Shown here piece after piece: positions 5,779 to 30,794 of a stretch of 43,905 nt of DNA. Source of the stretch: Ramlibacter sp. GTDB lineage: Bacteria > Pseudomonadota > Gammaproteobacteria > Burkholderiales > Burkholderiaceae_C. A program made the position numbers and the translations under genes. Below the pieces are notes generated by a model, which was not told the origin of the DNA, made no database searches, and worked only from the letters and a program-made list of their open reading frames with translations. Numbering within the stretch: position 1 is the stretch's first letter; each line of letters opens with the position of its first letter. The stretch spans positions 1 through 43,905 of the forward strand of contig NZ_JARXAB010000095.1 of the NCBI RefSeq assembly GCF_029866045.1, given 5' to 3'.

Positions 5779-5791
5779 GGGAGATTTTCTG

Positions 5792-10261: not shown

Positions 10262-10271
10262 AGGAATCACG

Positions 10272-16266: not shown

Positions 16267-16325
16267 TTTTTGAGAGCACCCCGGCTCTTGTCAAGCGTGC
16301 TAACCCCGTCACCCGAGTGCCGTCC

Positions 16326-17291
16326 ATGACCCTTTCTCACCCTCTGCGCCCCGTTCGGGTCATTCGCAAGCACCCGATCGCACGGGACATTCATCTGCTT
16401 GAACTGCGGGATCCCTCCGGGGAAAGCTTGCCCGCATTCTCGGCGGGTGCACACCTGCCGGTGCAAATCCCGACGGGCGCCATGCGTCACTACTCGCTGT
16501 GCGGCGATCCGAGAGACGCGGGGGCGTATCAGATCGCGGTCAAGCGGGAGGCCACAGGCCGGGGGGGATCGATCAGCCTCATCGACGGGGTGAATGAGGG
16601 CGACACCCTGATGGTGGGCGAGCCGGACAACCAGTTTGCCCTCAGCGAGAAGGCCCGTAGCTTCATCTTGATCGCAGGCGGCATCGGCGTCACCCCGATG
16701 CTGGCCATGATCCATCAGCTGCGTGCCGAAGGCCAGCGGCCCTTCAAGCTCTATTACCTGGCGCGTGACCCGGAGTCCACCGCTTTTGCCGAGACGCTGA
16801 CCGCACCCGAGCTGGCTGCCCAGGTGCTGATTCACCATGACCACGGCGACCCGGCCCGTTCGCTGGACCTCTGGCCGGTACTCGAAAAATCGGTGAGCGG
16901 AGCACATTTGTTCTGCTGCGGCCCCAAGGGGCTGATGGACAGCGTGCGCGACATGAGCGGCCACTGGCCGACCAGCGCGGTGCACTTTGAGAGCTTTGGC
17001 GCCGACACCCGGCCGCGCGAGGACGATCAGCCGTTTGAGGTGGTTCTGCAGCGCAGCGGCAAGCAACTGAGCGTCGGGGCGCGCCAAAGCCTGCTCGATG
17101 CCCTGCGTGGCCACGGGGTACAGGTACCCAGCTCCTGCGAAAGCGGCACCTGCGGGTCCTGCAAGGTGGGGCTTCTGGAAGGTCAGGCTGATCACCGTGA
17201 CTACGTCCTGCTGCCTGAGGAGTCGGACACCCACCTGATGGCGTGCGTGTCACGCGCCAAGGGCGGTGGGCCGCTGGTATTAGACCTATGA
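16326..17291 (+). CDS. PDR/VanB-type oxygenase reductase (FMN, NAD and C-terminal [2Fe-2S])
   Basis: A 321-residue three-domain reductase. FMN-binding barrel with RHYSLCGDP near 56-64; NAD domain with IAGGIGVTPMLAMI near 115-128; C-terminal plant-type ferredoxin with SCESGTCGSC near 271-280 and the fourth Cys in MACVSRA. This order is that of phthalate dioxygenase reductase and vanillate demethylase VanB. It passes NADH electrons to a Rieske oxygenase, here most likely the one at 19082. ATG 16326 is used; a GTG three codons upstream is possible. The gene's stop begins a run of 14-base repeats leading into the next gene. Confidence 0.94.
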   Translation: MTLSHPLRPVRVIRKHPIARDIHLLELRDPSGESLPAFSAGAHLPVQIPTGAMRHYSLCGDPRDAGAYQIAVKREATGRGGSISLIDGVNEGDTLMVGEPDNQFALSEKARSFILIAGGIGVTPMLAMIHQLRAEGQRPFKLYYLARDPESTAFAETLTAPELAAQVLIHHDHGDPARSLDLWPVLEKSVSGAHLFCCGPKGLMDSVRDMSGHWPTSAVHFESFGADTRPREDDQPFEVVLQRSGKQLSVGARQSLLDALRGHGVQVPSSCESGTCGSCKVGLLEGQADHRDYVLLPEESDTHLMACVSRAKGGGPLVLDL

Positions 17292-17324
17292 CATTCGACC
17301 AATGACATTGGACCTATGACACTG
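17283..17324 (+). repeat. Three tandem 14-base repeats forming a chain of overlapping mini-ORFs
   Basis: Three units, GACCTATGACATTC, GACCAATGACATTG and GACCTATGACACTG, lie end to end at the junction of the reductase and dehydrogenase genes. Each contains ATGACA. The reductase stop overlaps ATG 17288, which opens a five-codon frame ending at 17305; that stop overlaps ATG 17302, opening another five-codon frame ending at 17319; that stop overlaps the dehydrogenase ATG at 17316. All three junctions are ATGA. Confidence 0.85.
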
Positions 17325-18512
17325 AACCGCGCACCCCTGCGGATCGGCGTGCTCGGACTGGGCCGCGCCTTCACCCTGATGGTGCCCACCTTCAGCCGAG
17401 ACCCTCGCGTCCAGCTGGTGGCAGCCTATGACCCGCAAAAGGCGGCCTGTGCAGCCTTCACCCGCGAGTTCGGTGGTGTCGCGCACGCAAGTGCGCAGGC
17501 GGTGTGCGCTGACCCGGCGGTCGAGTGGGTGTACGTGGCCACCCCCCACGCCATGCACGCAGAACATGTGCAACTGGCCGCGAGCCATAGCAAGCATGTG
17601 CTGGTTGAAAAGCCCATGGCCCTCGGCCTGGAAGACTGCACCCGCATGATCGATGACTGCGCCCGCGCTGGCACGCAACTGCTAGTGGGCCACAGCCACA
17701 GCTTCAACGCGCCGGTGCGCCTGGCGCGCAACCTGATCGCCAGCGGCAGCTTGGGGGCGGTGCGTCTGGTGCACGCGATGAATTTCACCGATTTCCTCTA
17801 CCGCCCGCGCCGGCCCGAGGAACTCGATACCGCCCGCGGCGGTGGCGTCGTTTTCAGCCAGGCGGCACACCAAGTAGACATCGTCCGCATGCTGGCGGGC
17901 GGCCAGGCGCGGTCGGTCTATGCCCGTACCGGCGCCTGGGATCCGGCCCGCCCCACCGAGGGCGCCTACACCGCATTGATCGACTTCGCAGGCGGGGCGG
18001 TGGCCAACCTGACCTACAGCGGCTACGGCCGCTACGACACCGATGTCATCATGGACGGTATCGGCGAGATGGGACGGCCCAAGGCGCCAGGCACCCATCA
18101 AGCAACAAGGCAGCGGCTCGCGGCTGCGACCGATGAGGCCGCCGAGGCCGCGCAGAAGGCGCAGCGTAATTTTGGCGGCAGCGCCTACCAGGGCGACGAC
18201 GGCCGGGTGCCCGACGCGTATCAGCACTTCGGCCCGGTGGTCGTCTGCTGCGAGCACGCCGATCTGCGGCTGACGCCGACCGGAGTCGAGGTGCATGACC
18301 TGGCCGGCCTGCGCATAGAGGCGCTGCCGGCCCCGACGGTGCCCCGCAGCGAGGTGATCGACGAGTTATGGGCGGTGGCGCGCGAGGGCCAGGCCCCGGT
18401 GCACAGCGGCGCCTGGTCGAGGGCCACGCTGGAGGTGTGCCTGGCCATCCTGAGCTCGCAGCGCCAAGGCGGGCCCATCCCCCTCCACCAGCAAGTAGCG
18501 TTGGCTGCCTGA
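17316..18512 (+). CDS. Gfo/Idh/MocA-family dehydrogenase, phthalate dihydrodiol dehydrogenase-like
   Basis: A 398-residue NAD(P)-dependent dehydrogenase. N-terminal Rossmann fold with GVLGLGRA near 11-18 and the family signature EKPMAL near 99; the catalytic His-bearing AAHQVDIVRML segment is near 187-197. The stretch YRPRRPEELDTARGGG is, from memory, characteristic of Pht4/OphB, the dehydrogenases that rearomatise the cis-dihydrodiol made by phthalate 4,5-dioxygenase. With a PDR-type reductase upstream and a phthalate-dioxygenase-like oxygenase downstream, the same role is very plausible, though the substrate need not be phthalate. Its ATG is reached through a chain of ATGA-overlapping mini-frames from the reductase stop. 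It should be cytoplasmic. Confidence 0.88.
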   Translation: MTLNRAPLRIGVLGLGRAFTLMVPTFSRDPRVQLVAAYDPQKAACAAFTREFGGVAHASAQAVCADPAVEWVYVATPHAMHAEHVQLAASHSKHVLVEKPMALGLEDCTRMIDDCARAGTQLLVGHSHSFNAPVRLARNLIASGSLGAVRLVHAMNFTDFLYRPRRPEELDTARGGGVVFSQAAHQVDIVRMLAGGQARSVYARTGAWDPARPTEGAYTALIDFAGGAVANLTYSGYGRYDTDVIMDGIGEMGRPKAPGTHQATRQRLAAATDEAAEAAQKAQRNFGGSAYQGDDGRVPDAYQHFGPVVVCCEHADLRLTPTGVEVHDLAGLRIEALPAPTVPRSEVIDELWAVAREGQAPVHSGAWSRATLEVCLAILSSQRQGGPIPLHQQVALAA

Positions 18513-18526
18513 GCCCGCAATCTGCC

Positions 18527-19042
18527 ATGACAAGCCCCAGCCAGCCCGCGAACGACACCCACCAACTTCTGAAGCACTGGCGCGAGTCCGTGCCCGACGA
18601 CCGGCTCGCGCACTTGGTCCGTGATGTGGCACGCGCCCAGATGCGGGCGCTGCAGCAACGCCTGACTCCCCATGGCGTGTCCTTCGGACACTGGACCTTT
18701 CTTCGCATCCTCTGGATCCGTGACGGCCTGACCCAGAAGGAGCTGAGCGACCTGGCCGGCGTGATGGAGCCCACCACATTCAGTGCGGTCAAGGCCATGG
18801 AAACCATGGGCCTGATCGAGCGGCGACAGCGCGAGGGCAACCGGAAGAATATGCACGTCTTCCTCACACCCGCAGGCCGCGCCCTGGAGAAAAAGCTGGT
18901 GCCGCTGGCCGAGGAAGTCAACCACATCAGCATGCGTGGGCTGTCGGACAAGGCTGCGGCAACGCTGCGCAAGTCTTTGCTGTCGATGATCGAAAACCTC
19001 GCCGCCGAGGAAAGTGGCGGGCTCGGCGACGAAGGGGAATAG
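18527..19042 (+). CDS. MarR-family transcriptional regulator
   Basis: A 171-residue winged-helix protein. The MarR core is clear: GVSFGHWTFLRILW, GLTQKELSDLAGV (first helix-turn-helix helix), EPTTFSAVKAMETMGLIERR (recognition helix) and the wing RNRKNMHVFLTPAGRAL. Fourteen bases separate it from the dehydrogenase gene, so it belongs to the reductase operon and may be autoregulated. The palindrome TCTTAGC-GG-GCTAAGA ahead of that operon and a close copy ahead of the oxygenase gene (20441-20457) are the likely targets. MarR proteins of this sort usually release DNA on binding an aromatic acid or its CoA ester. Confidence 0.92.
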   Translation: MTSPSQPANDTHQLLKHWRESVPDDRLAHLVRDVARAQMRALQQRLTPHGVSFGHWTFLRILWIRDGLTQKELSDLAGVMEPTTFSAVKAMETMGLIERRQREGNRKNMHVFLTPAGRALEKKLVPLAEEVNHISMRGLSDKAAATLRKSLLSMIENLAAEESGGLGDEGE

Positions 19043-19081
19043 ACGCCGGAGAGCGGCTGGTGCGCTGGGGCAGTTAGACCT

Positions 19082-20404
19082 TCAGGCCTTCACCGCATAG
19101 TTTTGGTCGGTTCCTGCTTGGGCCTCTTCCACACCCAGCCAGATAGGGTGGGCGTCGTAATCGCGCCAGTCGATGGTCTTGGGGATGACATGCTGGAATG
19201 AGCAGACATCGGTAGGCGTTGCCTGGGCACCTGTGCCGATGGCAGGGCTGCCGTCTGCCACTGCGCGCACAGCCTCGATCATCTGCTTGCGAAACTCCAC
19301 CACCGCCAGGTCACTGGCACCGAGCCTGTCGCGGGTCCGGTCGGTCACGCGTCCCATGGACACCCACATGGCCATGTCCTGGTTGGGAATTCCTTGAATA
19401 CCGGTGAAGTTGCCGTCCCGCATCGCCTGCCGGTCTTGCCAGAACCGATTCTCGTGGTTGCGCAGCGGCCGATAGCGCTCGTCCACGTCGACACCCACGG
19501 TCAGATGCAGAAAGCGCCGCCATGCTTCGGTGTCTGGCGTCTGCTCGGCGTGGCCCCAGCCGATGAAGTAGAACACCATGTGGGTGTCGTCCATCGGCAC
19601 GTTGACGTTGGCCACGTTGTACAGGTTGTTCGGCGGAATCAACACGGTGAACGGCGCGACAAAGATGGTGGTGCGCACATAGTCGTGCGTCTGCGCATTG
19701 AAGATGGGCCGTCGAATGGCGGCGTAGCGAAACCCGTAGCCGGTGCGCTGAACCTGCATCCGCGGGGCCTTGTCGGTGGTGGGGCGCAGCCAGTTCTTGT
19801 CATTGGCCTCAGCGCCCTGCACGCGTGCCGGCACCATGTCTGAGCTGTGCAGGCTCGAGCTGTGGGCCGAGTCGATCGCGCCCTCGAGCACCTGCACCCA
19901 GTTCACCGGCAATATGGCCTTGCCAATGGACACGCGCGTGTCAGCCGTGGGCGCCCAGCGGGGCGGCACGAACTCCGGCGCATCGACCTGCGGGTCCATC
20001 CAACCCCACACCATGCCGCCCCACTCCTTGACTGGGTAGGCCTTGTGCTTGACCTTGTCCATAAAGCCGCTGGCCGCCGGTTCGGACACCATCTCGATCA
20101 CGTTCCCGTGAACGTCCATCTTCCAGCCGTGATAGAGGCAGCGCAGACCACCCTCTTCGTTACGGCCATAGACCAGCGAGGGTCCGCGGTGTGGACAGGC
20201 CTCGTCGAGCACGCCCACATTGCCGTCGCTGTCGCGGAACACCACCAGGTTCTCGCCCAGGATGCGTGCGGACACCGGGTCGCAGTCCGGCTCTGCCACC
20301 TCCTCGCTCAGGCAGATCGGCACCCAGTGCTGTCGCATCAGGCGGCCCATGGGCGCTTCGCCCTCGACGCGGCACAGCAAATCGTTTTCTTCGCGCGTGA
20401 TCAT
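19082..20404 (-). CDS. Rieske oxygenase catalytic subunit, phthalate 4,5-dioxygenase type
   Basis: A 440-residue oxygenase alpha subunit. Rieske centre: CPHRGPSL near 69 and CLYHGWKMD near 88 (CxH...CxxH). Mononuclear iron site: EGAIDSAHSSSLHSS near 174-188 with the D-x2-H-x4-H facial triad. The opening segment TREENDLLCRVEGEAPMGRLM and the NQDMAMWVSMGRVTDRTRD stretch are typical of the phthalate 4,5-dioxygenase (OphA2/Pht3) branch, which works as homo-oligomers without a beta subunit. It should dihydroxylate an aromatic acid using the PDR-type reductase at 16326. It converges on marR, and its promoter region (20405-20560) holds a MarR-like site and a candidate TetR site. Substrate unproven. 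Confidence 0.93.
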   Translation of the reverse strand: MITREENDLLCRVEGEAPMGRLMRQHWVPICLSEEVAEPDCDPVSARILGENLVVFRDSDGNVGVLDEACPHRGPSLVYGRNEEGGLRCLYHGWKMDVHGNVIEMVSEPAASGFMDKVKHKAYPVKEWGGMVWGWMDPQVDAPEFVPPRWAPTADTRVSIGKAILPVNWVQVLEGAIDSAHSSSLHSSDMVPARVQGAEANDKNWLRPTTDKAPRMQVQRTGYGFRYAAIRRPIFNAQTHDYVRTTIFVAPFTVLIPPNNLYNVANVNVPMDDTHMVFYFIGWGHAEQTPDTEAWRRFLHLTVGVDVDERYRPLRNHENRFWQDRQAMRDGNFTGIQGIPNQDMAMWVSMGRVTDRTRDRLGASDLAVVEFRKQMIEAVRAVADGSPAIGTGAQATPTDVCSFQHVIPKTIDWRDYDAHPIWLGVEEAQAGTDQNYAVKA

Positions 20405-20560: not shown

Positions 20561-21208
20561 TCAGTCTGCGGCCTGGCCCGAGGAGAGACCGGTCCGATGG
20601 CGCAAGGCCTCAATGGCGTAGTTGATCGTGGCCTGCTTGTTGGACTTGCCCGCCTCGCCAGCGGAGGAGATCGCAAGCCCACGCGAAAGGGCCCAGATCG
20701 CACGGATGATCAGAATGCCCTCGCTGGGCGGGATGCCACGCTTCTTGAGATGGGCCAACCAAAGCGCCTCGGTTTCAGAGCGCTGGGAGGTCAGAAGCCG
20801 GATGGCCGTATCCCCCACCAGGGTGTGCCTGCGCACCGACAGAAAGATGTCGAGGTAGATCAGGAACTCGGGCGCCGTGTAGAACCGCTCGGCGCTTCGG
20901 GAGATCGTGACCAACAGGTCCTCGTCCACCGGCGCGCGCGAAGCCTCCTGGGCGGCCCGCCGCATCACGCGTTGCGACAGCCGCTCCAGGACAGCCACCA
21001 CAAGACCATCTTTGCTGGGAAAGTGGTGCAACTGCCCACCCAGCGACACGCCGGCTTCACGGGCGACAGCGGCCACACGAAGCGATGCGTAACCGTGCTC
21101 GGAGAGCAGTTGGGTGGCGGCCTCAAGAATCAGTTCGCGCGTCGCGTCCTTCTGGTCGCTTCGAAGGGTGCGCGATTTGGGGGTCTGCCGAATGCCGCTC
21201 TTGTCCAC
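20561..21208 (-). CDS. TetR/AcrR-family transcriptional regulator
   Basis: A 215-residue TetR protein (GTG at 21208, GGAGA eight bases upstream; a GTG at 21223 would add five residues but has no ribosome site). The DNA-binding domain is near the N-terminus: TRELILEAATQLLSEHGYASLRVAAVAREAGVS with recognition helix, then LHHFPSKDGLVVAVL. The C-terminal ligand domain is helical and unassigned. It is divergent from the TAXI-like gene at 21380, with a perfect CCCTAG-N10-CTAGGG repeat in between, and upstream of the oxygenase gene, which has a similar site. Autoregulation and control of both flanking transcription units are likely. Confidence 0.92.
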   Translation of the reverse strand: MDKSGIRQTPKSRTLRSDQKDATRELILEAATQLLSEHGYASLRVAAVAREAGVSLGGQLHHFPSKDGLVVAVLERLSQRVMRRAAQEASRAPVDEDLLVTISRSAERFYTAPEFLIYLDIFLSVRRHTLVGDTAIRLLTSQRSETEALWLAHLKKRGIPPSEGILIIRAIWALSRGLAISSAGEAGKSNKQATINYAIEALRHRTGLSSGQAAD

Positions 21209-21295
21209 TTTCGCCGTCTCCACTGTGCACAGCGCGCAGAGGCGCTTGGGTCGCCATTTTGGTGCGTGCTACCGCCCGACCGCTGCAAAGTATGC

Positions 21296-21379: not shown

Positions 21380-22369
21380 ATGGATATGAAGACGGTCATC
21401 AATAAGGACACCGTGGGTCCACGCGTCAATTTCAAGATCGTTGCAGACTGGGGCAACGCCAACTTTCATGCGATCGCGGGCTGGATCTGCGCCCACCTGC
21501 GCTGGCGCTCGGAGCCTGACTCAGAGTTCTGGATCAAGACCGGAACCGGCTACGGCGACAACATCAAGGCTTTGGCCGCGGGAGAAGTCGACCTGGCAAT
21601 CACGACCCCCTTTGACCTGGCCCCCGAGTGGGCGATGGCGGGCTCACACTACTTCGCCGGTCGCGGGCAGTTGCCTGGCATGCGTGCACTCGGCTGGTTG
21701 CCGCAAAACGACCGCCTGGTGTTCGCCATTCGGGCTGACACCGGAATCACCTCATGGCAGGATCTGCGTGACCGTAAATTTCCGCTGAAACTGGCCAGCG
21801 CGTTTCGCACCGAAGACAACATGATGATGTGGGCAGTCGATCGTGTTCTGGAAGAACATGGGATCGAGGTTGAAGGCTGGGGGGGGGAGTGGCTGGAGCA
21901 TGACTTCCCGCGGATCTGCGTCCCGTTCGTCACCAACGGACAAGCCAATGCAGTGATCAATGAAGCGATCGTGGTGCCGCAGTGGCGCGAGCTGGTCGAG
22001 AAAGTGCCGATGCGCTTTCTTTCCTACGAGCCGGACGCATTGCAACGCTTGCAGACGAAGTATGGTCTGCGCCCCGGTGTCATGCCCAAGGGCTATCTCA
22101 AGGCGCCAGAAGACGTGCAGTGCATCGACTGGTCAAACTGGGCGATCCTGGTGCGTGACGACATGGACGATGACCTGGCCTACCGCATTACCTCCTTGAT
22201 GGTCGAGGAACGTGCCGAGTTGGAAGGGCGTTACCGGCATCTCCCGTCCGAGCATGCGGCGATGACCTACCCGATCGACCCCTATGCCATGTGGAAAGGT
22301 GTGGGCGCGCCCCTTCACCCGGGCGCCGAGCGCTACTACCGCGAGCATGGGTACATGAAGGGCGCCTGA
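21380..22369 (+). CDS. TAXI/TRAP-receptor-like protein without signal peptide (module 1); possible enzyme
   Basis: A 329-residue protein with the periplasmic-binding-protein type II pattern of the TAXI receptors: GYGDNIKALAAGEVDLAITTP near 57-77, an HPGAERYYREHG ending and the intervening two-lobed layout. It starts MDMKTVINKDT behind a strong AAAAGGAGA site, with no hydrophobic leader and no lipobox, so it should be cytoplasmic. There is no TRAP membrane gene nearby. It shares with the protein at 29153 several signatures: WGG (167-169), NEA/HEA (194), CIDW (248-251), EHxxMxYPID (291-300) and GAxRYY. 4,5-Dihydroxyphthalate decarboxylase also has a binding-protein fold and is missing from this phthalate-like cluster, so a decarboxylase role is worth considering; this is inference. 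A nine-G run (21879-21887) encodes the WGG motif. Confidence 0.75.
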   Translation: MDMKTVINKDTVGPRVNFKIVADWGNANFHAIAGWICAHLRWRSEPDSEFWIKTGTGYGDNIKALAAGEVDLAITTPFDLAPEWAMAGSHYFAGRGQLPGMRALGWLPQNDRLVFAIRADTGITSWQDLRDRKFPLKLASAFRTEDNMMMWAVDRVLEEHGIEVEGWGGEWLEHDFPRICVPFVTNGQANAVINEAIVVPQWRELVEKVPMRFLSYEPDALQRLQTKYGLRPGVMPKGYLKAPEDVQCIDWSNWAILVRDDMDDDLAYRITSLMVEERAELEGRYRHLPSEHAAMTYPIDPYAMWKGVGAPLHPGAERYYREHGYMKGA

Positions 22370-22409
22370 GGCCCGATTTCGACCGACCCACCCCTTCCTA
22401 CGAGGCCCC

Positions 22410-23051
22410 ATGCTCTATCAGGATATTGCCCTGACCACGCCGCTGGAGGACACGCTTGACCAGTGGAACCTGCTGGCAGACGATGCAATCCGCCAGTTCT
22501 TCGGATTCAAGGGAACCGGCGACAACATCATCGGGATCCGCAACATCGAGCGCGCCACTGTCGCCCAGCTCGGTGAGAAGACGGTTCCGGTCGCTCTGCC
22601 TGCCATTCGCAAGAACTACGAGATCGGTCCGCAAGGCGTGGTCGAAGTGCCGCGCATCCCCTACTCCGCGCACGTGACGCGTGCAGGAACGCCGCACCGG
22701 ACGCAGCATGTCTTTGGTTACTGGCACATCAACGACAAGGATGAAATCATCATCCCTCTGCCTCCTGATGGCGACCGACCCGGGCGGGTTCTCATCATCA
22801 TGGGGATGCCAGCGGGAGATGAGACTGACCGGTTTGCCTGGTATTGCGACAAGTGCCTGACGCTGCTTTTCATGCGAGAGTCCACCAACTTCGACAAGTT
22901 CTGGGCCGCAGAACTGGCGGCTGTACGGGACTACAACGCGGATCCAGAGCACCAGATCTGCCCCACCTGCGGGCACCACAACCCGCTGGCCTACTCGGGC
23001 ATGCAGCAGGCCGACCGTCCCGAAGAGCGCGAGGCGAGGTTTCTGTGGTGA
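22410..23051 (+). CDS. Cupin-like/zinc-ribbon protein resembling 3-hydroxyanthranilate dioxygenase (module 1, copy a)
   Basis: A 213-residue protein. The C-terminal half has RFAWYCDKC (Cys146, Cys149) and ICPTCGHHNP (Cys184, Cys187), the rubredoxin-like metal site found at the end of bacterial 3-hydroxyanthranilate 3,4-dioxygenases. Ahead of it, PHRTQHVFGYWHINDKDE carries His96, His100, His106 and Glu112; the His106-x5-Glu112 spacing matches the HxxxxxE iron ligands of that family (YHIEEGEE). The third canonical His, in a PHSPQR-like segment after the Glu, is absent; a PHR segment lies before it instead. So it is either a rearranged extradiol-type cupin or a metal-site protein of another function. 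It follows the TAXI-like gene by 40 bases and overlaps the next gene. Confidence 0.65.
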   Translation: MLYQDIALTTPLEDTLDQWNLLADDAIRQFFGFKGTGDNIIGIRNIERATVAQLGEKTVPVALPAIRKNYEIGPQGVVEVPRIPYSAHVTRAGTPHRTQHVFGYWHINDKDEIIIPLPPDGDRPGRVLIIMGMPAGDETDRFAWYCDKCLTLLFMRESTNFDKFWAAELAAVRDYNADPEHQICPTCGHHNPLAYSGMQQADRPEEREARFLW

Positions 23052-23632
23052 ACCGCGGCTACCTCCCCTCCGCTGCGGCGGTTCCGGCGCCGGACATGTC
23101 ATTTGTGCGCCTGTTTGGCGACGCGAGCCTGGGCTGGCAGCACAGAGGCCAATACGCCATCTGGACCGGAACGTCCAGCCAAGAATCACGATACCGCTTG
23201 CTGGAGCGCATCGGCCAAAAGGTCGCTTGCCTCGAGTTGGCCGACGGCGGCCCCGTGTTTCACAGGATCGGCCGTGGGATCCCCTTCACCATCGAGAACA
23301 TGATGAGCTTTTGGCTCACACTGGACTCGGACGCCATGTGGCTTGACACGCCCAGCGAGGCAGGACGCTACGCGCTGCTTGCCGTAGGCGGAGCCGCTGG
23401 CAAACCCGCCACTGCGACCGTGGATTGGACCTGCCCGAGCTGCGGCACCGCCATCGGGTCACGCACAGTGCCGATCGCAACCGCGGGCTTTGTTGCCATG
23501 CTCAAGACCGCAGAGGCGGCCGCTGCTGCATTCGACGCCGATGCGCAGTCACGTCGCTGCGGCGCCTGCGAGATGGTTCACCCGCCAACCACGGCGATGC
23601 GGTCAGGCCGGCATTTGCAGGGCGGCGCATGA
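23048..23632 (+). CDS. Degenerate paralogue of the cupin-like/zinc-ribbon protein (module 1, copy b)
   Basis: A 194-residue protein starting at a GTG that overlaps the previous stop (GTGA). It aligns with its neighbour across the motif region and the zinc ribbon: MMSFWLTLDSDAMWL stands where the others have GYWHINDKDEI, and DWTCPSC (Cys129, Cys132) and RRCGACEMVHP (Cys171, Cys174) match the ribbon. The His and Glu of the putative iron site are Leu and Ala here, so it should lack that centre while keeping zinc. Such a pair suggests a catalytic subunit and a structural subunit of one heteromer. Its stop overlaps the Rieske ferredoxin start. No named family recognised with certainty. Confidence 0.6.
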   Translation: MNRGYLPSAAAVPAPDMSFVRLFGDASLGWQHRGQYAIWTGTSSQESRYRLLERIGQKVACLELADGGPVFHRIGRGIPFTIENMMSFWLTLDSDAMWLDTPSEAGRYALLAVGGAAGKPATATVDWTCPSCGTAIGSRTVPIATAGFVAMLKTAEAAAAAFDADAQSRRCGACEMVHPPTTAMRSGRHLQGGA

Positions 23633-23982
23633 CGATACAAACACCGCCTCCACCCTCAGAGCCGTCCCATCTGGCCTGCGCAAGGTCGGATGTCCCGACC
23701 GATGGCGCTGTTTTGACATGCCGTGTGGAAGGACGCGCCATCGCGGTCGCCCGGAGATCCGCAGGGAGTGACGACATCGTCGCCTTCGATACCCGCTGCC
23801 CGCATATGGATGGCCCTTTGCGCCTGGGCCGGGTGGTCGAAGGAGAAGTCATTTGCCCCTGGCACTTTTTCAGGTTCGATGTTTGCACGGGCCACGCGGT
23901 CGCCTGCGACAAGAGCCAGATGCAATTGAAAATCTATCCGGTCAAGGTGCTCGACGAAAAGGTCTATGTCGACATCCAATAA
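23629..23982 (+). CDS. Rieske-type [2Fe-2S] ferredoxin
   Basis: A 117-residue single-domain Rieske protein. CPHMDGPLRLG and CPWHFFRFD give the CxH...CxxH cluster ligands with the usual spacing of about 17 residues. The size is that of the ferredoxin components of three-component ring-hydroxylating oxygenases and of nitrite reductase NirD. The oxygenase in this window is of the two-component phthalate type with its own reductase, so it would not obviously need this ferredoxin. It overlaps the zinc-ribbon protein gene by ATGA and may serve the TAXI/cupin module instead. Confidence 0.92.
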   Translation: MTIQTPPPPSEPSHLACARSDVPTDGAVLTCRVEGRAIAVARRSAGSDDIVAFDTRCPHMDGPLRLGRVVEGEVICPWHFFRFDVCTGHAVACDKSQMQLKIYPVKVLDEKVYVDIQ

Positions 23983-24072
23983 TCGCGGCACGAGCCAAGC
24001 CACGGCCGGCGTCGTGGCGATCACCCCCAGTTCTTGATTGACTTCGCAACCCACCACACAGGACACGAACCC

Positions 24073-25254
24073 ATGACAGCCATGAAACCCCTCGCCGCCT
24101 TGCTCGTTTCTGCCCTTTGCGCCGCGGGCGCCGCGCAGGCCCAGACCGGCCCGATCAAGATCGGCATCATCCACCCGTCCACAGGCCCGCTGTCGACGCC
24201 CGGCATTGAGGCCACCAACGGCTTCCAGATGTATTTCAACGAGATCGGCAACCGGATTGCCGGCCGGCAGGTGCAGTTTTTCCAGGAAGACGAAGGGTCC
24301 AACCCAGCCCAAGGGCTGGAGCGGATCAAGCGCCTGGTGGAGCGCGAGGGCGTCCATGTCGTCACGGGCATCACCTCAAGCGCGGTCGGCTACGCGGTGC
24401 GCGACTACATCCATGAAAAGCAGATGCCCCTGGTGATCATGGGCGCAGCGGGCGCCAATGACCTCACTGCCGCCCGGGGCAGCCCGTACATCTTCAGAAC
24501 CAGCTTCACCAACCGGCAGTTCACCGCGCCTTACGGGCAGTACGCCTGCCAGAAGATGAACTACAAGCGAACGGTCATCCTGGCCTCGGACTTCGTGACG
24601 GGCCAGGAGCAGGCCAACGCGTTTGAAGAGTCGTACAAGAAGGCGGGTTGCGAGATCGTCAAAAAGATCATGGTGCCCCTGGGCACGAGCGACTTCGCCC
24701 CCTTCCTGGCACAGATCCCGAGCTCCAACGTCGACGCGGTCTGGGCCATGTTCCTCGGCCAAGATGCCATTGGCTTCGTCAAGCAATATGACCAGCTGGG
24801 CTTCAAGGCCCGTATTCCCCTCACCGGCTCGGCCGGTTTGACGTACGAGCCACTGCTGCCGGCCATGGGCCGCTCGGCGGTGGGCGCCCAAGTCTCCACC
24901 TGGTACATCCCAGACCTGCCCGGAGACGTCAACAAGCGCTTTGTCGACGCCTACACCGCGCAGTACAAGTCGGTGCCGGGGTCCGCCACCGCGGGAGCCT
25001 ATGTGGGCGCCATGGCCTTGGCCAAGGCCATCGAGGCGGTCAACGGGCGCGTCGAAAACAAGGCCGAGTTGCTGGCTGCGCTGCGCCGGGTGAATCTGCC
25101 GTCCACGCCGCAAGGGCCCTTCCGCTTTGACGACAAGCAAAACGTCGTCTTCAACCTTTACGCGGTCAAGATCGTCGATCGTGGCGGCAAGCCGGTCCCC
25201 GAACTGGTGGCGCCGATTGCCACCGGCGTCGACCAGGCCTGGCAAGCGCGCTGA
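24073..25254 (+). CDS. Branched-chain-amino-acid-type ABC transporter receptor (LivK/HbaE-like)
   Basis: A 393-residue periplasmic receptor of the Leu/Ile/Val-binding type I fold. Signal peptide about 1-24 ends AAQAQT; the mature protein begins PIKIGIIHPSTGPLS, the standard ligand-edge motif, and has VHVVTGITSSAVG near 95. The ATG at 24073 was chosen; further upstream in-frame codons precede the signal peptide. It heads a five-part importer with the fused permease and two ATPases that follow. Receptors of this class near aromatic degradation genes usually bind aromatic or alicyclic acids rather than amino acids. Ligand unproven. Confidence 0.93.
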   Translation: MTAMKPLAALLVSALCAAGAAQAQTGPIKIGIIHPSTGPLSTPGIEATNGFQMYFNEIGNRIAGRQVQFFQEDEGSNPAQGLERIKRLVEREGVHVVTGITSSAVGYAVRDYIHEKQMPLVIMGAAGANDLTAARGSPYIFRTSFTNRQFTAPYGQYACQKMNYKRTVILASDFVTGQEQANAFEESYKKAGCEIVKKIMVPLGTSDFAPFLAQIPSSNVDAVWAMFLGQDAIGFVKQYDQLGFKARIPLTGSAGLTYEPLLPAMGRSAVGAQVSTWYIPDLPGDVNKRFVDAYTAQYKSVPGSATAGAYVGAMALAKAIEAVNGRVENKAELLAALRRVNLPSTPQGPFRFDDKQNVVFNLYAVKIVDRGGKPVPELVAPIATGVDQAWQAR

Positions 25255-25293
25255 ACTTCCTGTAACCCTTGAACCTGGCCCGGGAAGGGCTGG

Positions 25294-27195
25294 GTGATCG
25301 GCCCTAGCACTGTGTGGACCCTCTCCATCATCAACGGAGTCGCGTACGGCAGCCTCCTGTTCCTCCTAGCGGCGGGCTTCTCGATGATCTTCGGCGTGCT
25401 GAAGGTCATCAACCTGGCCCATGGGTCCCTCTACCTGGCGGCGGCCTATCTGACGTACAGCCTGGTCGAGGCTGGAACCGGCATGGTCGTGGCCGTGGCT
25501 GGCGGAGCGATCGTCGCCGCGCTGGTTGCCGCGCTCTCTGAGCGTTTTCTTCTGTACAGGCTGCAGGGCCAATATCTGGCCCAGGTGCTGGTCACCCTGG
25601 GGCTGCTGCATATCTTCGCGGATGTCTTCCACGGGGTCTGGGGCGGCACGCCGCGTGTGGTGCAGGTGCCAGACATCTGGGACTGGTCGGTCCCCATGGG
25701 GGTCATGAGCTACCCCGCCTACCGCCTGTTCCTGATCGGATGCGGGCTCACCGTCGCATTGGCGCTGTGGTGGCTACTCGAACGCACGCGTTTGGGCAGC
25801 ATCGTGCGAGCGGCCGTCGACGACGAGGAAATGGCGCAGACCAGCGGCGTGGTGGTTCCGAGGTTGCGTTGGATTGTTTTCGGCCTTGGCGGTCTTCTCG
25901 CCGGGCTGGCGGGCGGGCTTGGCGCGCCCTTCCTGGGCGCCCGATCGGGCCTGGACCTCGAGGTATTTCTGCTGGCCCTGGTGGTGGTGGTGGTCGGAGG
26001 AATCGGCTCGCTCGGGGGCGCCTACCTGGCCGCGATGCTGGTCGGTGTGATCGATTCGGTCGGGAAGATCCTGTTCCCCGAAGCCTCGATGTTCATGCTG
26101 TTCCTGCCCTTGCTTCTGATCCTGCTGTTCAGGCCCAGTGGCCTGTCGGGCCGCGTGTTGACGCATGTGGTGCCGGTGTCCCGCGACACCCGCGGCAGCA
26201 AGGAGCCAGAGGGGTTTGCGCGCCGCTTGCAACCCTGGGTCGAGCGCGCACGGACGGTGCCCGCGTGGAAGGTAGGTCTGGCACTCCTGGCCATTCTGGC
26301 GCTGTTTCCCGCGATGTCATCGCCCTACGGCGTGGGCATTCTGACATTGATCTTGATCTGGGCCATCGTGGGCTTGGGGTTCAATGTGCTGTTGGGGTAC
26401 GCGGGCATGCCCTCCTTCGGCCATGCGGCCTTTTTTGGGGGCGGCGCCTATGCAGTCGCCCTGCTGGCCAAGCACTGGCAGGGACCGTCCTGGCTTTTGC
26501 TGGTCGCCGCTGTTGCCTGCATGACTGTCATGGCGGCAATTTTTGGCGTTTTGGCTCTGCGCACACGGCTGGTCTACTTTCTGTTGGCGACTGTCGCCCT
26601 GGGTCAACTGGCCTGGGGTGTGATGTTCAAGTGGCGGTCCTTATCCGGCGGAGACGATGGCATGCGCCTGGGGGAAAAACTCTCCATGCCCGGCGTCCCC
26701 GCCGAGAGCAGCTCCGCCTTCTACTATGCGGTCGCGGCGGTTTTTTTCCTGGTCTGTGTGGTGTTCTATCGCTTGCACAAGTCACATTTCAAGCGAGTGC
26801 TACAGGGCCTGCAGGGCAATGACCGGCGCCTTTCAGCCCTGGGCTATGACACCTGGGTGTATCAGTTCGCGGCCTTCGTTCTGTCGGGAACCATCACGGG
26901 TCTGGCAGGCGCGCTGTTCGCCTTTCACGCTGGCTTCGTGAGTCCACAGCTGCTGGGGATCGTGATTTCGGCAAAGATTATGCTGATCACCATTCTTGGC
27001 GGCGCAGGAACTTTTGTCGGGCCGCTGCTGGGCGCGCTTGTCTTGATAGGCGCGGAGGAATTCGTGACGCGCTGGACATCGCACTGGGAGGCCTTCCAGG
27101 GCATCCTGTTCATCTCCGTCGCCATCTTGGCGCCGCGCGGGCTGGCCGGTGCATTCAACCGGCTGTTCCCTGCGCGACCCGATCAGCAGGCGTGA
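25294..27195 (+). CDS. Fused LivH-LivM ABC permease
   Basis: A 633-residue protein that joins the two permeases usually encoded separately. Residues 1-285 are LivH-like (INGVAYGSLLFLLAAGFSM, VINLAHGS, VVVVVGGIGSLGGAYLAA); a short charged linker around 286-325 follows; residues 326-633 are LivM-like (GLGFNVLLGYAGMPSFGHAAFF, ILGGAGTFVGPLLGA). About 16-18 membrane segments. The GTG start has AAGGG ahead of it. Translation is coupled to the first ATPase gene. The fusion locks permease stoichiometry at 1:1. Confidence 0.93.
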   Translation: MIGPSTVWTLSIINGVAYGSLLFLLAAGFSMIFGVLKVINLAHGSLYLAAAYLTYSLVEAGTGMVVAVAGGAIVAALVAALSERFLLYRLQGQYLAQVLVTLGLLHIFADVFHGVWGGTPRVVQVPDIWDWSVPMGVMSYPAYRLFLIGCGLTVALALWWLLERTRLGSIVRAAVDDEEMAQTSGVVVPRLRWIVFGLGGLLAGLAGGLGAPFLGARSGLDLEVFLLALVVVVVGGIGSLGGAYLAAMLVGVIDSVGKILFPEASMFMLFLPLLLILLFRPSGLSGRVLTHVVPVSRDTRGSKEPEGFARRLQPWVERARTVPAWKVGLALLAILALFPAMSSPYGVGILTLILIWAIVGLGFNVLLGYAGMPSFGHAAFFGGGAYAVALLAKHWQGPSWLLLVAAVACMTVMAAIFGVLALRTRLVYFLLATVALGQLAWGVMFKWRSLSGGDDGMRLGEKLSMPGVPAESSSAFYYAVAAVFFLVCVVFYRLHKSHFKRVLQGLQGNDRRLSALGYDTWVYQFAAFVLSGTITGLAGALFAFHAGFVSPQLLGIVISAKIMLITILGGAGTFVGPLLGALVLIGAEEFVTRWTSHWEAFQGILFISVAILAPRGLAGAFNRLFPARPDQQA

Positions 27196-27929
27196 TGACG
27201 ATGGCAGCCCAAGCCCTTTTCTCGATGCGCAGCGTGCGCCTTTCGCTCGGCGGCGTGGACATTTTGCGTGGGGTTGACCTGGATGTCGCCCCAACCGGCT
27301 GCCATGTTCTGATCGGGCCGAACGGTGCCGGGAAGACCTCGCTTTTCAACGTCGCGTCCGGCCAATACAAGCCCACAACGGGGTCTGTCCACTTTGACGG
27401 GCAAGACATCACGCGATTGGCGCCGCACCAGCGTGCGCAAAGGCGAATCGCCAGAACCTTCCAAGTGGCCAGCCTGTTTCGCGAACTGAGCGTAGAAGAC
27501 AACCTGCGGCTGGCGGTGCTGGCACCTGCGCCCCATCTGGGCAAACGCACGGCAGCCGAGGTCCAGGACCAAATGGCCTCCCTGCTGGAGACCAGCGGCC
27601 TGCAGGCCAAGCGGCATATGACAGCGGGTCAGCTGGCCTACGGCGAGCAGCGGCAATTGGAGATCGCCCTTGGACTGGCGAACCAACCGGCCCTGCTGCT
27701 GATGGACGAGCCGATGGCGGGGCTGACCGCCCAGGAGCGCCAGGTCCTGGCCCGACGCCTGGACGACCTGTCCCAGAAAATCGCGGTCCTGATGGTCGAA
27801 CACCACCTCGAAGATGCGCTGGCGATTGCCGATCAGATCACCGTGCTGTATTTGGGCGAGGCGATCTTTTCGGGCACTGCGGACGAGGTCAGGGCCCACC
27901 CGCTGGTTCAAAAAATCTACCTGGGGTGA
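27192..27929 (+). CDS. ABC transporter ATPase, LivG type
   Basis: A 245-residue ATPase. Walker A GPNGAGKTSLF near 36-46, signature AYGEQRQLEIA near 150, Walker B LLLMDEPMAGL near 168-178, then the switch histidine in VEHHLEDAL. The FRELSVEDNLRLAV stretch is typical of LivG. Start is GTG 27192 or ATG 27195, both overlapping the permease stop. Works with the LivF-type ATPase that follows. Confidence 0.94.
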   Translation: MMTMAAQALFSMRSVRLSLGGVDILRGVDLDVAPTGCHVLIGPNGAGKTSLFNVASGQYKPTTGSVHFDGQDITRLAPHQRAQRRIARTFQVASLFRELSVEDNLRLAVLAPAPHLGKRTAAEVQDQMASLLETSGLQAKRHMTAGQLAYGEQRQLEIALGLANQPALLLMDEPMAGLTAQERQVLARRLDDLSQKIAVLMVEHHLEDALAIADQITVLYLGEAIFSGTADEVRAHPLVQKIYLG

Positions 27930-28678
27930 CAAGCCGCATGCAGCTGAACGTCTGTGACCTCAATGTCTTCATTGGCGACAGCCATGTGCTGCAGGGACTG
28001 ACGCTGGGCATCGGCGCTAGCCGCCAGGTGGTGGTGATCGGTCGCAACGGCGCTGGAAAAACAACCCTGGCCCGGGCGCTGCTCGGGTTGACCGGTCCGT
28101 CCGCCGAGGGCACGCTGACCATTGCGGCCGATGGTGCGGCCGCATCGCCAGGCGGGACACGCGACATTTCATCAAGCGCCACCTGGGACCGCCACCAACT
28201 GGGAATTGGCTATGTGCCTCAGGGAAGGCGGGTATTTGCCTCACTCAGCGTCGAGGAGAACCTGCAAGTCGCGGCGCATCCGCCACGTGATGGCAGAGCG
28301 CCCGCGTGGACGCTGGACTCCCTTTACGACCTGTTCCCGCGGCTCAAGGAGCGCCGTCGCCAGCTGGCGTCCGTGCTGTCGGGGGGCGAACAGCAAATGC
28401 TCGCGATTGGCCGTGCGCTGAGCGGGCACCCCAGAATCCTGATCCTGGACGAACCGACCGAGGGCCTGGCACCGATCATGGTGGATCTGGTGGTGGGCAC
28501 CCTGAAGAAGGTCAACGACAGCGGCATTGACGTTCTGCTGTTTGAACAGAATCTGCGTGTGGCCGCCAGCATGGCGGACGACCTCCATGTGCTTCAGTCT
28601 GGTCAGATCGTCCACAGCCAGCGCGATGTGAGCGAGGCTGATGTGCGCGATCTTGCCGAGCGCTATCTGAGCGTCTGA
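27926..28678 (+). CDS. ABC transporter ATPase, LivF type
   Basis: A 250-residue ATPase. Walker A GRNGAGKTTLARALLG near 38-53, signature LSGGEQQMLAIGRAL near 151-165, Walker B ILILDEPTEGLAP near 171-183, and the LivF-specific VPQGRRVFASLSVEENL. A stretch rich in Ala, Gly and Ser around 62-83 is a slightly long insertion between Walker A and the Q-loop. Start GTG 27926 overlaps the LivG-type stop; an ATG four codons later is the alternative. Last gene of the importer operon. Confidence 0.94.
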   Translation: MTSRMQLNVCDLNVFIGDSHVLQGLTLGIGASRQVVVIGRNGAGKTTLARALLGLTGPSAEGTLTIAADGAAASPGGTRDISSSATWDRHQLGIGYVPQGRRVFASLSVEENLQVAAHPPRDGRAPAWTLDSLYDLFPRLKERRRQLASVLSGGEQQMLAIGRALSGHPRILILDEPTEGLAPIMVDLVVGTLKKVNDSGIDVLLFEQNLRVAASMADDLHVLQSGQIVHSQRDVSEADVRDLAERYLSV

Positions 28679-28719
28679 GTTTGCTCGCGCAGATGACAGC
28701 ACACAGACCCGGCACGACA

Positions 28720-28745
28720 CGTTCCCCTCGGCGGAACGCTGTTCC
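28720..28745. promoter_or_regulatory. Triple half-site operator upstream of module 2
   Basis: CGTTCC-N7-GGAACG overlaps GGAAC-GCT-GTTCC, so three alternately oriented GTTCC half-sites lie within 26 bases. A perfect 10-base palindrome, AAAGTACTTT (28754-28763), and a TACGAT -10-like element (28763-28768) follow. The layout suggests a repressor site in the promoter of the ferredoxin/TAXI/cupin operon. Neither the MarR nor the TetR candidate sites resemble it. Confidence 0.55.
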
Positions 28746-28799
28746 TAATCCACAAAGTACTTTACGATCCCTGGAAGAAAAGAGCCTCCAGGAGACGTG

Positions 28800-29156
28800 A
28801 TGGCCTGTTTTAGAGTTTTGAACCGGCAGCTTGAGCTGCAAGCAACGCCCACCCAATCGCTCCTGCAAGCAGCGGAGGCGGCCGGAGAGCCGTGGCGCCG
28901 GTTTTGCGGTTCGTCGGCGCTGTGCGGCACCTGCGCGGTCGTCGTGGTGGACGGTCAGCCCGCGCCGGCTCGCCCGCGTGAGGCCATGTTCATTGAGGGC
29001 TGGGGCAAGCAAGAGGGGTTCCGCCTGGGCTGCCAGCTCAAACTGGCCGAGGGCGATGTGACCGTCATCAACTGCTCTGACTACGAGTTCGATCCCGACG
29101 CCATCGCCGCCGCGGCGAGCGCCGCCAAACAACAAATTTCAAAGGAGACAGCATGA
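28800..29156 (+). CDS. [2Fe-2S] ferredoxin (module 2)
   Basis: A 118-residue beta-grasp ferredoxin. Ligands: CGSSALCGTC (C-x5-C-x2-C) and the fourth Cys in LGCQLK 33 residues later. The five-residue gap between the first two cysteines is that of adrenodoxin-type rather than plant-type (four-residue) ferredoxins. The last 25 residues are alanine-rich and beyond the usual fold. GGAG precedes the ATG. The stop overlaps the TAXI-like gene start (ATGA), so the two are coupled. Likely an electron donor to a protein of this operon. Confidence 0.9.
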   Translation: MACFRVLNRQLELQATPTQSLLQAAEAAGEPWRRFCGSSALCGTCAVVVVDGQPAPARPREAMFIEGWGKQEGFRLGCQLKLAEGDVTVINCSDYEFDPDAIAAAASAAKQQISKETA

Positions 29157-30118
29157 CGCAACGCAAAATTGAACTTGATTTTTCCACCTGCTGGGGCACC
29201 ACCAACTTCACCCGCGTGGCGGGCTGGATCATGTGGGGCCTGCGTGACCACTTCGACCCCAAGTCACGCTTTGACATCAAGCTCGGTAACGGCGTGGTTG
29301 ACAACATCCACCGCGTGGCGCGCGGCGAAGCTGATCTGGGCATCATCACCCCCACCCAAAACCTGAACCTCGCACGCGAAGGTCGCGGCCCCTTCACCAC
29401 GGCCTACCCCGACCTGGTGTCCCTAGGCACACTCCAGCACGACGATCGGCTCACCTGCGGTGTGGCCAGCCACGTCAAGATCAATTCCCTGCACGACATC
29501 GCCGCACAGCGACTGCCGCTGCGCATCGCCGCCGACCTCGAGGACGACGGCGCATCGGTGGCCTTTGCCAGCCACGAGATCCTGAAGTTCTACGGCATCA
29601 CACAAGACCGCCTGCGCTCCTGGGGTGGCGATCTGCTTCACCTCGACCGCGGTCCCGGCCAGGGCGTTGAAAAAATCATCGACGGCCATGCCGACATCCT
29701 GATTCACGAGGCAGTGATGCTCAAGCCGTGGTTCGAATTGATCCACGACCGCGGCGGGCGCTTCATGTCCTTTGACAAAGCCCTGCTCGACCACCTGGCC
29801 AAGGAATACGGCTACGGTTCGGCCAAGCTTCCCACGACCTTTGGTTACACCGGTGGCGACGTCGACTGCATCGACTGGGCAGACTGGCTGATCATCTGCC
29901 GCCGCGACCTGGACCCCGAAATCGCCTACCGCGTTTCCCAAGTCATGGCCGAAAAGAGGCGTGTGATTGAAAACCAGTACCGCTGGATGCCGATCAAGCA
30001 CTCTCCCATGATCTACCCCATTGACGTGAAAGCCATGTTTGAGACCCCCGGCGTCGAGTACCACGAGGGTGCACTGCGCTACTACGCAGACAGCAAACAG
30101 ACCCAGAAAGCCGCCTGA
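29153..30118 (+). CDS. TAXI/TRAP-receptor-like protein without signal peptide (module 2); possible enzyme
   Basis: A 321-residue paralogue of the protein at 21380, alignable from end to end. It starts MTQRKIELDFSTCWGTTNF directly at the first strand of the fold, behind AAAGGAGA, so no export signal is possible. Shared positions: NFxxxAGWI near 18-26, DNI and GEADLGIITP near 50-67, SWGGD near 156-160, HEA near 185, CIDWADW (239-245), a conserved His in PIKHSPMIYPID (280-291) and HEGALRYY (304-311). Ligand-binding residues of exported TAXI receptors are not the ones conserved here, as far as I can judge. Between a ferredoxin and a cupin-like protein, it looks like a subunit of a cytoplasmic enzyme. 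Function unknown. Confidence 0.75.
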   Translation: MTQRKIELDFSTCWGTTNFTRVAGWIMWGLRDHFDPKSRFDIKLGNGVVDNIHRVARGEADLGIITPTQNLNLAREGRGPFTTAYPDLVSLGTLQHDDRLTCGVASHVKINSLHDIAAQRLPLRIAADLEDDGASVAFASHEILKFYGITQDRLRSWGGDLLHLDRGPGQGVEKIIDGHADILIHEAVMLKPWFELIHDRGGRFMSFDKALLDHLAKEYGYGSAKLPTTFGYTGGDVDCIDWADWLIICRRDLDPEIAYRVSQVMAEKRRVIENQYRWMPIKHSPMIYPIDVKAMFETPGVEYHEGALRYYADSKQTQKAA

Positions 30119-30131
30119 GGTCAGAGACCGT

Positions 30132-30794
30132 ATGGACCAAGTCACTTCCGCAGGCCCGAAGCCGGGCTTGTCTGATGACGCATTTGCCCTGTTGCAAGAC
30201 ATCGTAGGGCGCAAGGGGGCGCTGACCGTCGTCGACATGCTCGACGACGACGCGGCGCTTCGGTATCGCAGCTTTTTCCCGGTCGGAGAGATGCTGATCG
30301 GACTGCGCTTCTACGAGAACGATCCTTCTCGGCTGGGCATGCGAAACGGCAACACGCTCAAGATCGTTGACGGAAAAATTGCAGTGGAGCCACGCCGGCA
30401 CATGATGTTCACGCCGCCACTCGTGCCGCACCGCTCGGAACATATCTATGGCTTCTGGCATATCAACGACGAGCAAGAACTCGCGATGAACCTCACCCTG
30501 AGTGAGACCCGGCGCGTCACCGTGTTGATCGAGGGCTTCCCGAAGCGCGGCCGCCGTGACCGGTTCGCCTGGTTTTGCACCAGTTGCCTGAACCCCCTGT
30601 ACATGCGCGAAGTGGAAACCGGCCGCGTGGGCCTGCCCGGTTTTTATGCCGTCGAGGAAGACGCCTTTGAGGTGTTTAATTCCGAACTGAGCCTGCGCAC
30701 TTGCAAGCGATGCGGCACGGTTCATCCGCACGCTTATTCCATCTTCACCTGGAACGACTCAGAAGAACAAAAAGCCGCGCGCGCCGCTTCCTGA
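30132..30794 (+). CDS. Cupin-like/zinc-ribbon protein resembling 3-hydroxyanthranilate dioxygenase (module 2)
   Basis: A 220-residue paralogue of the protein at 22410. VPHRSEHIYGFWHINDEQE contains His100, His104, His110 and Glu116 at the same spacing, and the ribbon is RFAWFCTSC (Cys149, Cys152) plus RTCKRCGTVHP (Cys191, Cys194), the latter matching bacterial 3-hydroxyanthranilate dioxygenases closely. Like its paralogue it lacks a clear third His after the Glu. The N-terminal 50 residues are unlike the module 1 protein. It starts 14 bases after the TAXI-like stop. A mononuclear iron dioxygenase or a metal-containing subunit is likely; the reaction is open. Confidence 0.65.
   Translation: MDQVTSAGPKPGLSDDAFALLQDIVGRKGALTVVDMLDDDAALRYRSFFPVGEMLIGLRFYENDPSRLGMRNGNTLKIVDGKIAVEPRRHMMFTPPLVPHRSEHIYGFWHINDEQELAMNLTLSETRRVTVLIEGFPKRGRRDRFAWFCTSCLNPLYMREVETGRVGLPGFYAVEEDAFEVFNSELSLRTCKRCGTVHPHAYSIFTWNDSEEQKAARAAS

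Follow-up and report, generated by a model that had tools for sequence, protein, structure and literature searches.

The analysed window, a stretch of 43,905 nucleotides from Ramlibacter sp. (contig NZ_JARXAB010000095.1, positions 1 to 43,905), contains two gene modules that each combine TAXI-like, cupin-like (CUP) and ferredoxin genes. Module 1 (21380-23982) has the order TAXI1-CUP1-CUP2-Rieske ferredoxin, and module 2 (28797-30794) has the order Fer2 ferredoxin-TAXI2-CUP3. A first-pass annotation of this DNA had noticed that the same three protein types occur twice, and all seven genes are indeed open frames at or near the positions that it gave:

21380-22369, forward strand: TAXI1, a protein of the predicted cytosolic TAXI clade (Pfam NMT1_3, E 1.9e-23), with the clade residues and no signal peptide
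22410-23051, forward strand: CUP1, a putative metal-binding subunit resembling 3-hydroxyanthranilate dioxygenase (3-HAO), with H96, H100, H106, E112 and a Cys4 ribbon
23045-23632, forward strand: CUP2, an apparently degenerate CUP1-like partner that keeps the Cys4 ribbon and has lost the His and Glu residues
23629-23982, forward strand: the Rieske ferredoxin of the CUP1-CUP2 operon (Rieske PF00355, E 2.7e-16)
28797-29156, forward strand: a Fer2 [2Fe-2S] ferredoxin (Fer2 PF00111, E 1.1e-11) with a CX5CX2C motif read from the sequence
29153-30118, forward strand: TAXI2, a second protein of the predicted cytosolic TAXI clade (NMT1_3, E 6.2e-13)
30132-30794, forward strand: CUP3, a CUP1-like protein with the His/Glu motif and a Cys4 ribbon, whose ATG start was seen in an alignment

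Both modules are as tightly packed as first described, with gaps of 40 bp (TAXI1-CUP1) and 13 bp (TAXI2-CUP3) and overlaps of 7 bp (CUP1/CUP2), 4 bp (CUP2/Rieske ferredoxin) and 4 bp (Fer2/TAXI2). The spacing between them is 4.8 kb and not 5.2 kb as originally estimated. A simple recent duplication, already doubted in the first-pass annotation, is ruled out by the identities of 35% (TAXI1/TAXI2) and 34% (CUP1/CUP3) and by the different gene order and carrier. A Ramlibacter metagenome-assembled genome (L022) contains, in conserved order, counterparts of six of the seven genes at 94-99% identity, and CUP3 is also present there.

No Pfam family matches CUP1, CUP2 or CUP3 above its cut-off. The NCBIfam 3-HAO models (PRK13264/TIGR03037) match the three proteins via the C-terminal ribbon with 25.1, 16.6 and 36.4 bits, respectively, far below the cut-off of 220, and a profile of seven CUP sequences finds solved 3-HAO structures over the same C-terminal part (E values from 1.5e-6). 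By these comparisons the CUP proteins are distant relatives of 3-HAO that carry a Cys4 ribbon. A second branch, the gene pair CUPA-CUPB, was first found from a Phaeobacter plasmid; single pairwise comparisons of the CUPA and CUPB profiles with a 3-HAO profile gave probabilities of 95.0% and 98.5%. Two Cys pairs are observed in CUP1, CUP2, CUP3 and their relatives, the second pair of CUPB from genome G1601 being CDC.

Ten lineages with CUP genes were compared. The CUP1 type comprises the window species, Paraburkholderia phenoliruptrix HU18, Bradyrhizobium WSM3983, Aurantiacibacter 219JJ12-13 and genome G1081, and the CUPA type comprises the Phaeobacter gallaeciensis plasmid, the Sphingobium AntQ-1 plasmid (pANTQ-1) and genomes G1601, G1604 and G1545. 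CUP1-type genes are very rare, with true matches in 1 of 369 class genomes and in 2 of 249, 1 of 195 and 1 of 144 genomes, counts that include the genomes used as search centres. The second match among the 369 class genomes (G275) was rejected as an ordinary 3-HAO. A CUP profile search detected the type in 1 of 249 genomes (the family of G720), and its seven other matches were ordinary 3-HAOs.

CUP1 from the five lineages and CUP3 have in common P95, H96, H100, G103, W105, H106, N108, E112 and both CxxC pairs. The H106-x5-E112 element (His-x5-Glu) resembles the first 3-HAO cupin motif, and CUPA has the equivalent FxHxNxVDE together with a later His in all five of its lineages. The reading of these motifs as a metal site presumes the ligand roles of the 3-HAO residues. 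Two cupin-like copies had originally been counted in module 1; this description fits CUP1, and CUP2 lacks the cupin metal motif. CUP2 aligns with CUP1 across the motif region (hhalign probability 98.3% over 135 columns), and H96, H100, H106 and E112 are all replaced in its five lineages, so CUP2 looks like a degenerate partner. In all ten lineages the catalytic-looking protein (CUP1 or CUPA) is paired with a second CUP gene, either CUP2 (motif lost) or CUPB (motif partly kept).

The CUP genes are accompanied by redox genes. By sequence reading, the Rieske ferredoxin of the window (PF00355, 59.7 bits) has the CxH and CxxH motifs in the form of CPH and CPWH. CUP1, CUP2 and the Rieske ferredoxin occur in one order in five of the five CUP1-type lineages, with the ferredoxin directly 3' of CUP2 (judged by eye in G1081). 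They are followed by Fer2 and FAD reductase genes in HU18 and G1081 and by a gene that we read as FNR-like in WSM3983. CUPA and CUPB are adjacent in all five CUPA-type lineages, and every one of them has a gene for a reductase or a flavodoxin within ~3 kb (AntQ-1, PDR reductase; Phaeobacter and G1545, FAD reductase; G1604, FAD reductase and flavodoxin; G1601, flavodoxin). Overall, a ferredoxin, flavodoxin or reductase lies within ~3 kb of CUP in ten of ten lineages and a reductase in seven. This gene order is good evidence that the CUP pair acts jointly with an electron carrier.

The carriers could nevertheless have a purely restorative role. CUP1 and CUP2 (and CUP3) would then be ring-cleaving dioxygenases that turn over without electrons, the carriers would only re-reduce accidentally oxidized iron, and TAXI would perform a separate pathway step. 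The nearest characterized relative of the CUP proteins, 3-HAO, needs no external electrons, and ring-cleavage-pathway genes are found near CUP loci. A precedent is XylT, which re-reduces XylE iron oxidized by accident; XylE/XylT likewise combine a ring-cleavage-type enzyme with a [2Fe-2S] ferredoxin, but XylE belongs to an oxygenase family unrelated to the CUP/3-HAO type, and the loci described here also contain reductases, a flavodoxin or Rieske carrier, and TAXI. The Fer2 protein at 28797 is not significantly similar (E 0.83) to the Fer2 protein beside the pANTQ-1 catechol 2,3-dioxygenase. The CUP proteins further differ from 3-HAO in forming a two-gene pair with one degenerate member, in their adjoining electron carriers and in the absence of the later 3-HAO His motif from CUP1. 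The absent motif, the dissimilarity of the two Fer2 proteins and the reductases in seven lineages argue against dioxygenases of this kind, which we consider unlikely.

TAXI1 and TAXI2 score 84 and 49.5 bits against PF16868 (cut-off 27), a match that establishes TAXI-domain homology, and 82.4 and 36.9 bits against TIGR02122, below the cut-off of 84.35. Their clade was first defined with 13 proteins (TAXI1 and TAXI2 of the window, two copies each from HU18 and Phaeobacter, and one each from WSM3983, Sphingobium faniae, Aurantiacibacter, G686, G450, Aminobacter and G1081) and compared with 13 other TAXI proteins, or 14 after the addition of EbN1 TAXI; three later members (G1601, G1604 and G1545) bring the clade to 16. 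The tree separates the clade from the other TAXIs with a support of 1.000 (13 versus 13 proteins). The N-terminal hydropathy maximum does not exceed 1.42 in any of the 13 clade proteins and is at least 1.57 in the 13 others, a narrow gap, and it is at most 1.18 in the three later members. Judged by this hydropathy, all 16 clade members lack a signal peptide, which all 13 ordinary TAXIs possess. Ten residues (N28, P77, D111, E195, W202, R259, D261, E282, P289 and P298) occur in every one of the 16 clade proteins and in none of the 14 other TAXIs. The WGG sequence at 167-169 was rejected as a clade-specific motif because EbN1 TAXI contains it too.

Two papers (PMC12344293, PMC11574862) describe TAXI receptors as periplasmic or lipid-anchored, and Y45 and Q93 of VcGluP are reported to weigh most in glutamate binding. 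In the alignment column taken for Y45, 14 of the 16 clade proteins have His, the exceptions being TAXI2 (Thr) and the Aminobacter protein (Leu), and 11 of the 14 others have Tyr; an alignment of 9oz4 with TAXI2 places Thr at the Q position of the receptor. TAXI1 and TAXI2 thus resemble the TAXI TRAP receptors (TIGR02122/PF16868; VcGluP, EbN1 TAXI) in family membership and in the C-terminal HxGA motif region and differ from them in the clade residues and the missing signal peptide. No TRAP gene adjoins either protein in the window, where the neighbours are TetR, CUP and ferredoxin genes. The clade TAXIs look cytosolic, as the first-pass annotation had proposed.

Linkage between TAXI and CUP recurs across both CUP types, which exceeds what chance would produce given how rare CUP1-type genes are. 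A clade TAXI is present on the CUP record in nine of the ten lineages and within 4 kb in eight. The CUP1-type gaps are 40 and 13 bp in the window, 388 bp in G1081, 3131 bp in HU18, 3479 bp in Aurantiacibacter and 31.5 kb in WSM3983; the CUPA-type gaps are 536 bp in G1601, 1990 bp in G1545, 2995 bp in G1604 and 3419 bp in Phaeobacter. Because TAXI1 had served as the bait for several lineages, linkage is fairly tested by the five that only CUP queries had brought up (AntQ-1, G1081, G1601, G1604 and G1545). Four of these have TAXI within 3 kb of CUP, with AntQ-1 as the exception. These counts support joint action of TAXI with CUP and the carrier, through a linkage that is not exclusive, and the idea that the proteins work together, drawn from the window alone, gains from them: CUP homologues do not occur mostly alone.

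The same clade might instead consist of cytosolic aromatic-acid binders (a buffer, a TetR partner or an uptake helper) derived from TAXI-TRAP phthalate receptors, with CUP and ferredoxin as a separate enzyme that shares the island. Uptake of o-phthalate via TAXI-TRAP is described or proposed in PMC13040137 and PMC6362003, and a TAXI-TRAP pair appears in a polycyclic aromatic hydrocarbon cluster of Sagittula according to PMC11705938. The WGG motif links the clade to EbN1 TAXI, which adjoins UbiD and CoA-transferase genes; EbN1 TAXI, however, has a signal peptide, lacks E195, W202, R259, D261 and E282, and is placed next to the clade with a support of only 0.227. A TetR gene diverges from TAXI1 in five lineages (the window, and HU18, G1081, WSM3983 and Aurantiacibacter with 52-63% identical proteins), as would suit a TetR partner, but no TetR of this type was observed near TAXI2 or the TAXIs of the CUPA-type loci. 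A Sphingobium TAXI adjoins an MFS gene in the absence of CUP. Binding alone leaves the repeated TAXI-CUP linkage over two CUP types unaccounted for, and we regard this explanation as decidedly improbable. At the HU18 locus (L043:4450-7609), the TetR gene is flanked on both sides by TAXI1 copies 77-79% identical to that of the window.

The window genes that place the modules in an aromatic-acid setting lie upstream of TAXI1:

13862-14737, reverse strand: NadC/QPRT (QRPTase domains), of the kind found in phthalate clusters
16317-17291, forward strand: a PDR-type, Pht2-like reductase with Fer2, NAD- and FAD-binding domains, a possible electron source
17316-18512, forward strand: a Pht4-like Gfo/Idh/MocA oxidoreductase (GFO_IDH_MocA domain)
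19082-20404, reverse strand: a Pht3-like Rieske oxygenase of the LigXa_C type (PF19301, E 4.4e-157, and a Rieske domain)
20561-21223, reverse strand: the TetR regulator divergent from TAXI1 (52-63% identical TetR proteins elsewhere)

The phthalate-type Rieske system pointed out in the first-pass annotation is thus present beside module 1 (16317-20404). Reductases that adjoin Pht4-like genes, both in WSM3983 and in the pht cluster of HU18, share 52-53% identity with the PDR reductase, the Pht4-like protein is 43-54% identical to its counterparts in pht clusters, and the Pht3-like oxygenase is 71% identical to a Rieske protein of the HU18 pht cluster. NadC has homologues inside the pht clusters of HU18, S. 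wenxiniae and Aurantiacibacter, and PMC6051330 reports that a NadC-type enzyme gave better growth of strain DBO1 on phthalate. The TAXI-bearing contig carries pht genes in HU18, WSM3983, Aurantiacibacter and S. wenxiniae. Two importers had also been proposed as companions, with names taken from sequence reading, but importers do not accompany the gene set consistently: a Liv-type importer lies within ~8 kb in WSM3983 and Phaeobacter, but the HU18, Aurantiacibacter and Sphingobium loci have MFS genes.

Such surroundings would also fit carriers that merely serve neighbouring Rieske oxygenases, the clustering of the Rieske ferredoxin and Fer2 with CUP being a habit of catabolic islands. The Pht3-like oxygenase is located 1 kb from TAXI1, and three other module contigs (HU18, WSM3983 and Aurantiacibacter) carry pht genes. 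The window, however, already has a PDR reductase for Pht3; the Rieske ferredoxin stays directly 3' of CUP2 in all five lineages, wherever Pht3 sits; and the G1601, G1604 and G1545 loci have a flavodoxin or FAD reductase instead, while no Rieske oxygenase matched the reference set in the 20 kb read at each. Service to neighbouring oxygenases is very unlikely.

Plasmid pANTQ-1 provides a second view of the setting. A Pht5-like gene, CUPA, CUPB and a PDR reductase gene stand in a row (L046:15219-20218), annotated as PhnD/SsuA, hypothetical, hypothetical and PDR/VanB, and nadC lies on the opposite strand 0.7 kb upstream. In WSM3983 and Aurantiacibacter, TAXI1 is adjoined by a hydrolase gene (61-62% identity) related to the gene after the pANTQ-1 LLM monooxygenase, which we take to be sphantq_4474, and by an MFS gene 59% identical to the neighbour of that pANTQ-1 gene. 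Anthraquinone induces pht2345 and sphantq_4473/4474 in AntQ-1, according to the paper on this strain (PMC9836352), the main text of which uses none of the terms cupin, PDR or substrate-binding. The hydrolase relatives are located directly 3' of TAXI1 (L041:7411-8574 and L045:3875-4993), and the former has no Pfam family. The CUPA-type loci other than AntQ-1 have MhpA-like monooxygenases, VOC proteins or hydrolases nearby. A setting of phthalate and aromatic catabolism, with phthalate and meta-cleavage genes as CUP neighbours, is supported by these gene contents. Because of this mixture of pht, AntQ-1-like and MhpA-like/VOC/hydrolase genes, we take the probable substrate to be an aromatic acid or a ring-cleavage relative rather than phthalate alone.

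Pht5 (4,5-dihydroxyphthalate decarboxylase) is a binding-protein-like protein of phthalate clusters, and like TAXI1 it scores barely above the PF12974 cut-off of 27 bits (28.1 for Pht5, 28.9 for TAXI1). The two show no pairwise similarity (BLASTP E 5.6). TAXI1 was rejected as a stand-in for Pht5 because each of the seven genomes searched contains a Pht5-like match in addition to TAXI1; in the source genome the Pht5-like gene (44%) is on another contig (G000:C116).

The gene set stands beside aromatic-acid genes and recurs in unrelated bacteria, and it therefore probably represents one enzyme system. We tentatively favour a cytosolic, NAD(P)H-driven multicomponent redox enzyme or oxygenase of aromatic-acid catabolism, a plausible reading of the gene content in which CUP1 or CUP3 would hold the metal site and TAXI would be a substrate-handling or lyase partner. 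Electrons would pass from NAD(P)H through a reductase and a carrier to the metal of CUP, and O2 would serve there in the hydroxylation or ring opening of an aromatic acid similar to phthalate or dihydroxybenzoate. This acid would be bound by TAXI, acting as a lyase/decarboxylase-like partner or substrate presenter, and the two copies in the window may act on different but related substrates. Electron-fed catalysis, O2 use and the role of TAXI are what we infer beyond the gene order. Pht5, DszB and MqnA are examples of binding-protein-fold proteins turned enzyme. The first-pass annotation, which had suggested a redox enzyme built on a binding-protein fold, is partly supported: the aromatic-catabolism setting stands, but the metal and redox features reside on CUP and the ferredoxins and not on the TAXI fold.

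Several observations weigh against this multicomponent enzyme. Clade TAXIs also occur where no CUP was found, which qualifies the co-occurrence originally noted: CUP accompanies TAXI in nine of 14 TAXI-clade lineages. Of the other five, S. faniae and S. wenxiniae gave no CUP with either the CUP1 or the CUPA query, the Aminobacter plasmid gave none with the CUP1 query, and G686 and G450, whose whole genomes were not searched for CUP, have none within the 20 kb around TAXI. Conversely, the plasmid of AntQ-1 carries CUPA-CUPB but no clade TAXI, being absent from the 39 records of the TAXI1 search, its chromosomes not having been searched. The second 3-HAO His motif, missing downstream in CUP1, leaves the third ligand of CUP1 and CUP3 ambiguous and makes the CUP1 metal site a prediction. 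CUPB, inspected by eye, has H-x5-D in three of five lineages, Tyr for that His in two and the later His in all five, so that its motif loss is only partial, and CUP3 has no second CUP partner beside it. The ferredoxins could serve neighbouring Rieske oxygenases instead, and no pht gene is seen in 80 kb around the G1081 module. AlphaFold models of TAXI1 and CUP1 (mean pLDDT 43.2 and 47.5) are too poor for use.

A more specific version, possible but somewhat doubtful, is a new oxygenase class: a ferredoxin- or flavodoxin-driven heterodimeric enzyme of the 3-HAO superfamily, in which the Cys4 ribbon would be a rubredoxin-like electron entry to the cupin metal and the cytosolic TAXI a catalytic or substrate-presenting subunit. 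The 3-HAO superfamily would then gain a two-subunit, electron-fed branch, and a transport-receptor family would have a second career inside the cell. The components come from known families; no TAXI-CUP-ferredoxin module was found in the literature searched, with most subscription journals outside its reach. The gene set offers a testable cytosolic role for genes that currently carry the annotation 'TAXI TRAP transporter subunit', and it points to steps that may be missing from catabolic islands of the phthalate and anthraquinone type, for example through the pANTQ-1 row.

Two further sets of genes in the window were named by sequence reading. In the regions 2466-4624 and 4621-11270, a mutase-like large gene (564 aa) and a B12-binding-like small gene (154 aa) precede thiolase-, DUF35-, CoA-ligase- and acyl-CoA-dehydrogenase-like genes. 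Two isochorismatase-like hydrolases (35420-36085 and 37726-38409) are positioned on either side of an ABC ATPase. In WSM3983, an amidohydrolase_2 gene (L039:17417-18481) closely follows a MarR gene and the CUP1-CUP2-ferredoxin-reductase genes; the amidohydrolase_2 family includes hydroxybenzoate decarboxylases.

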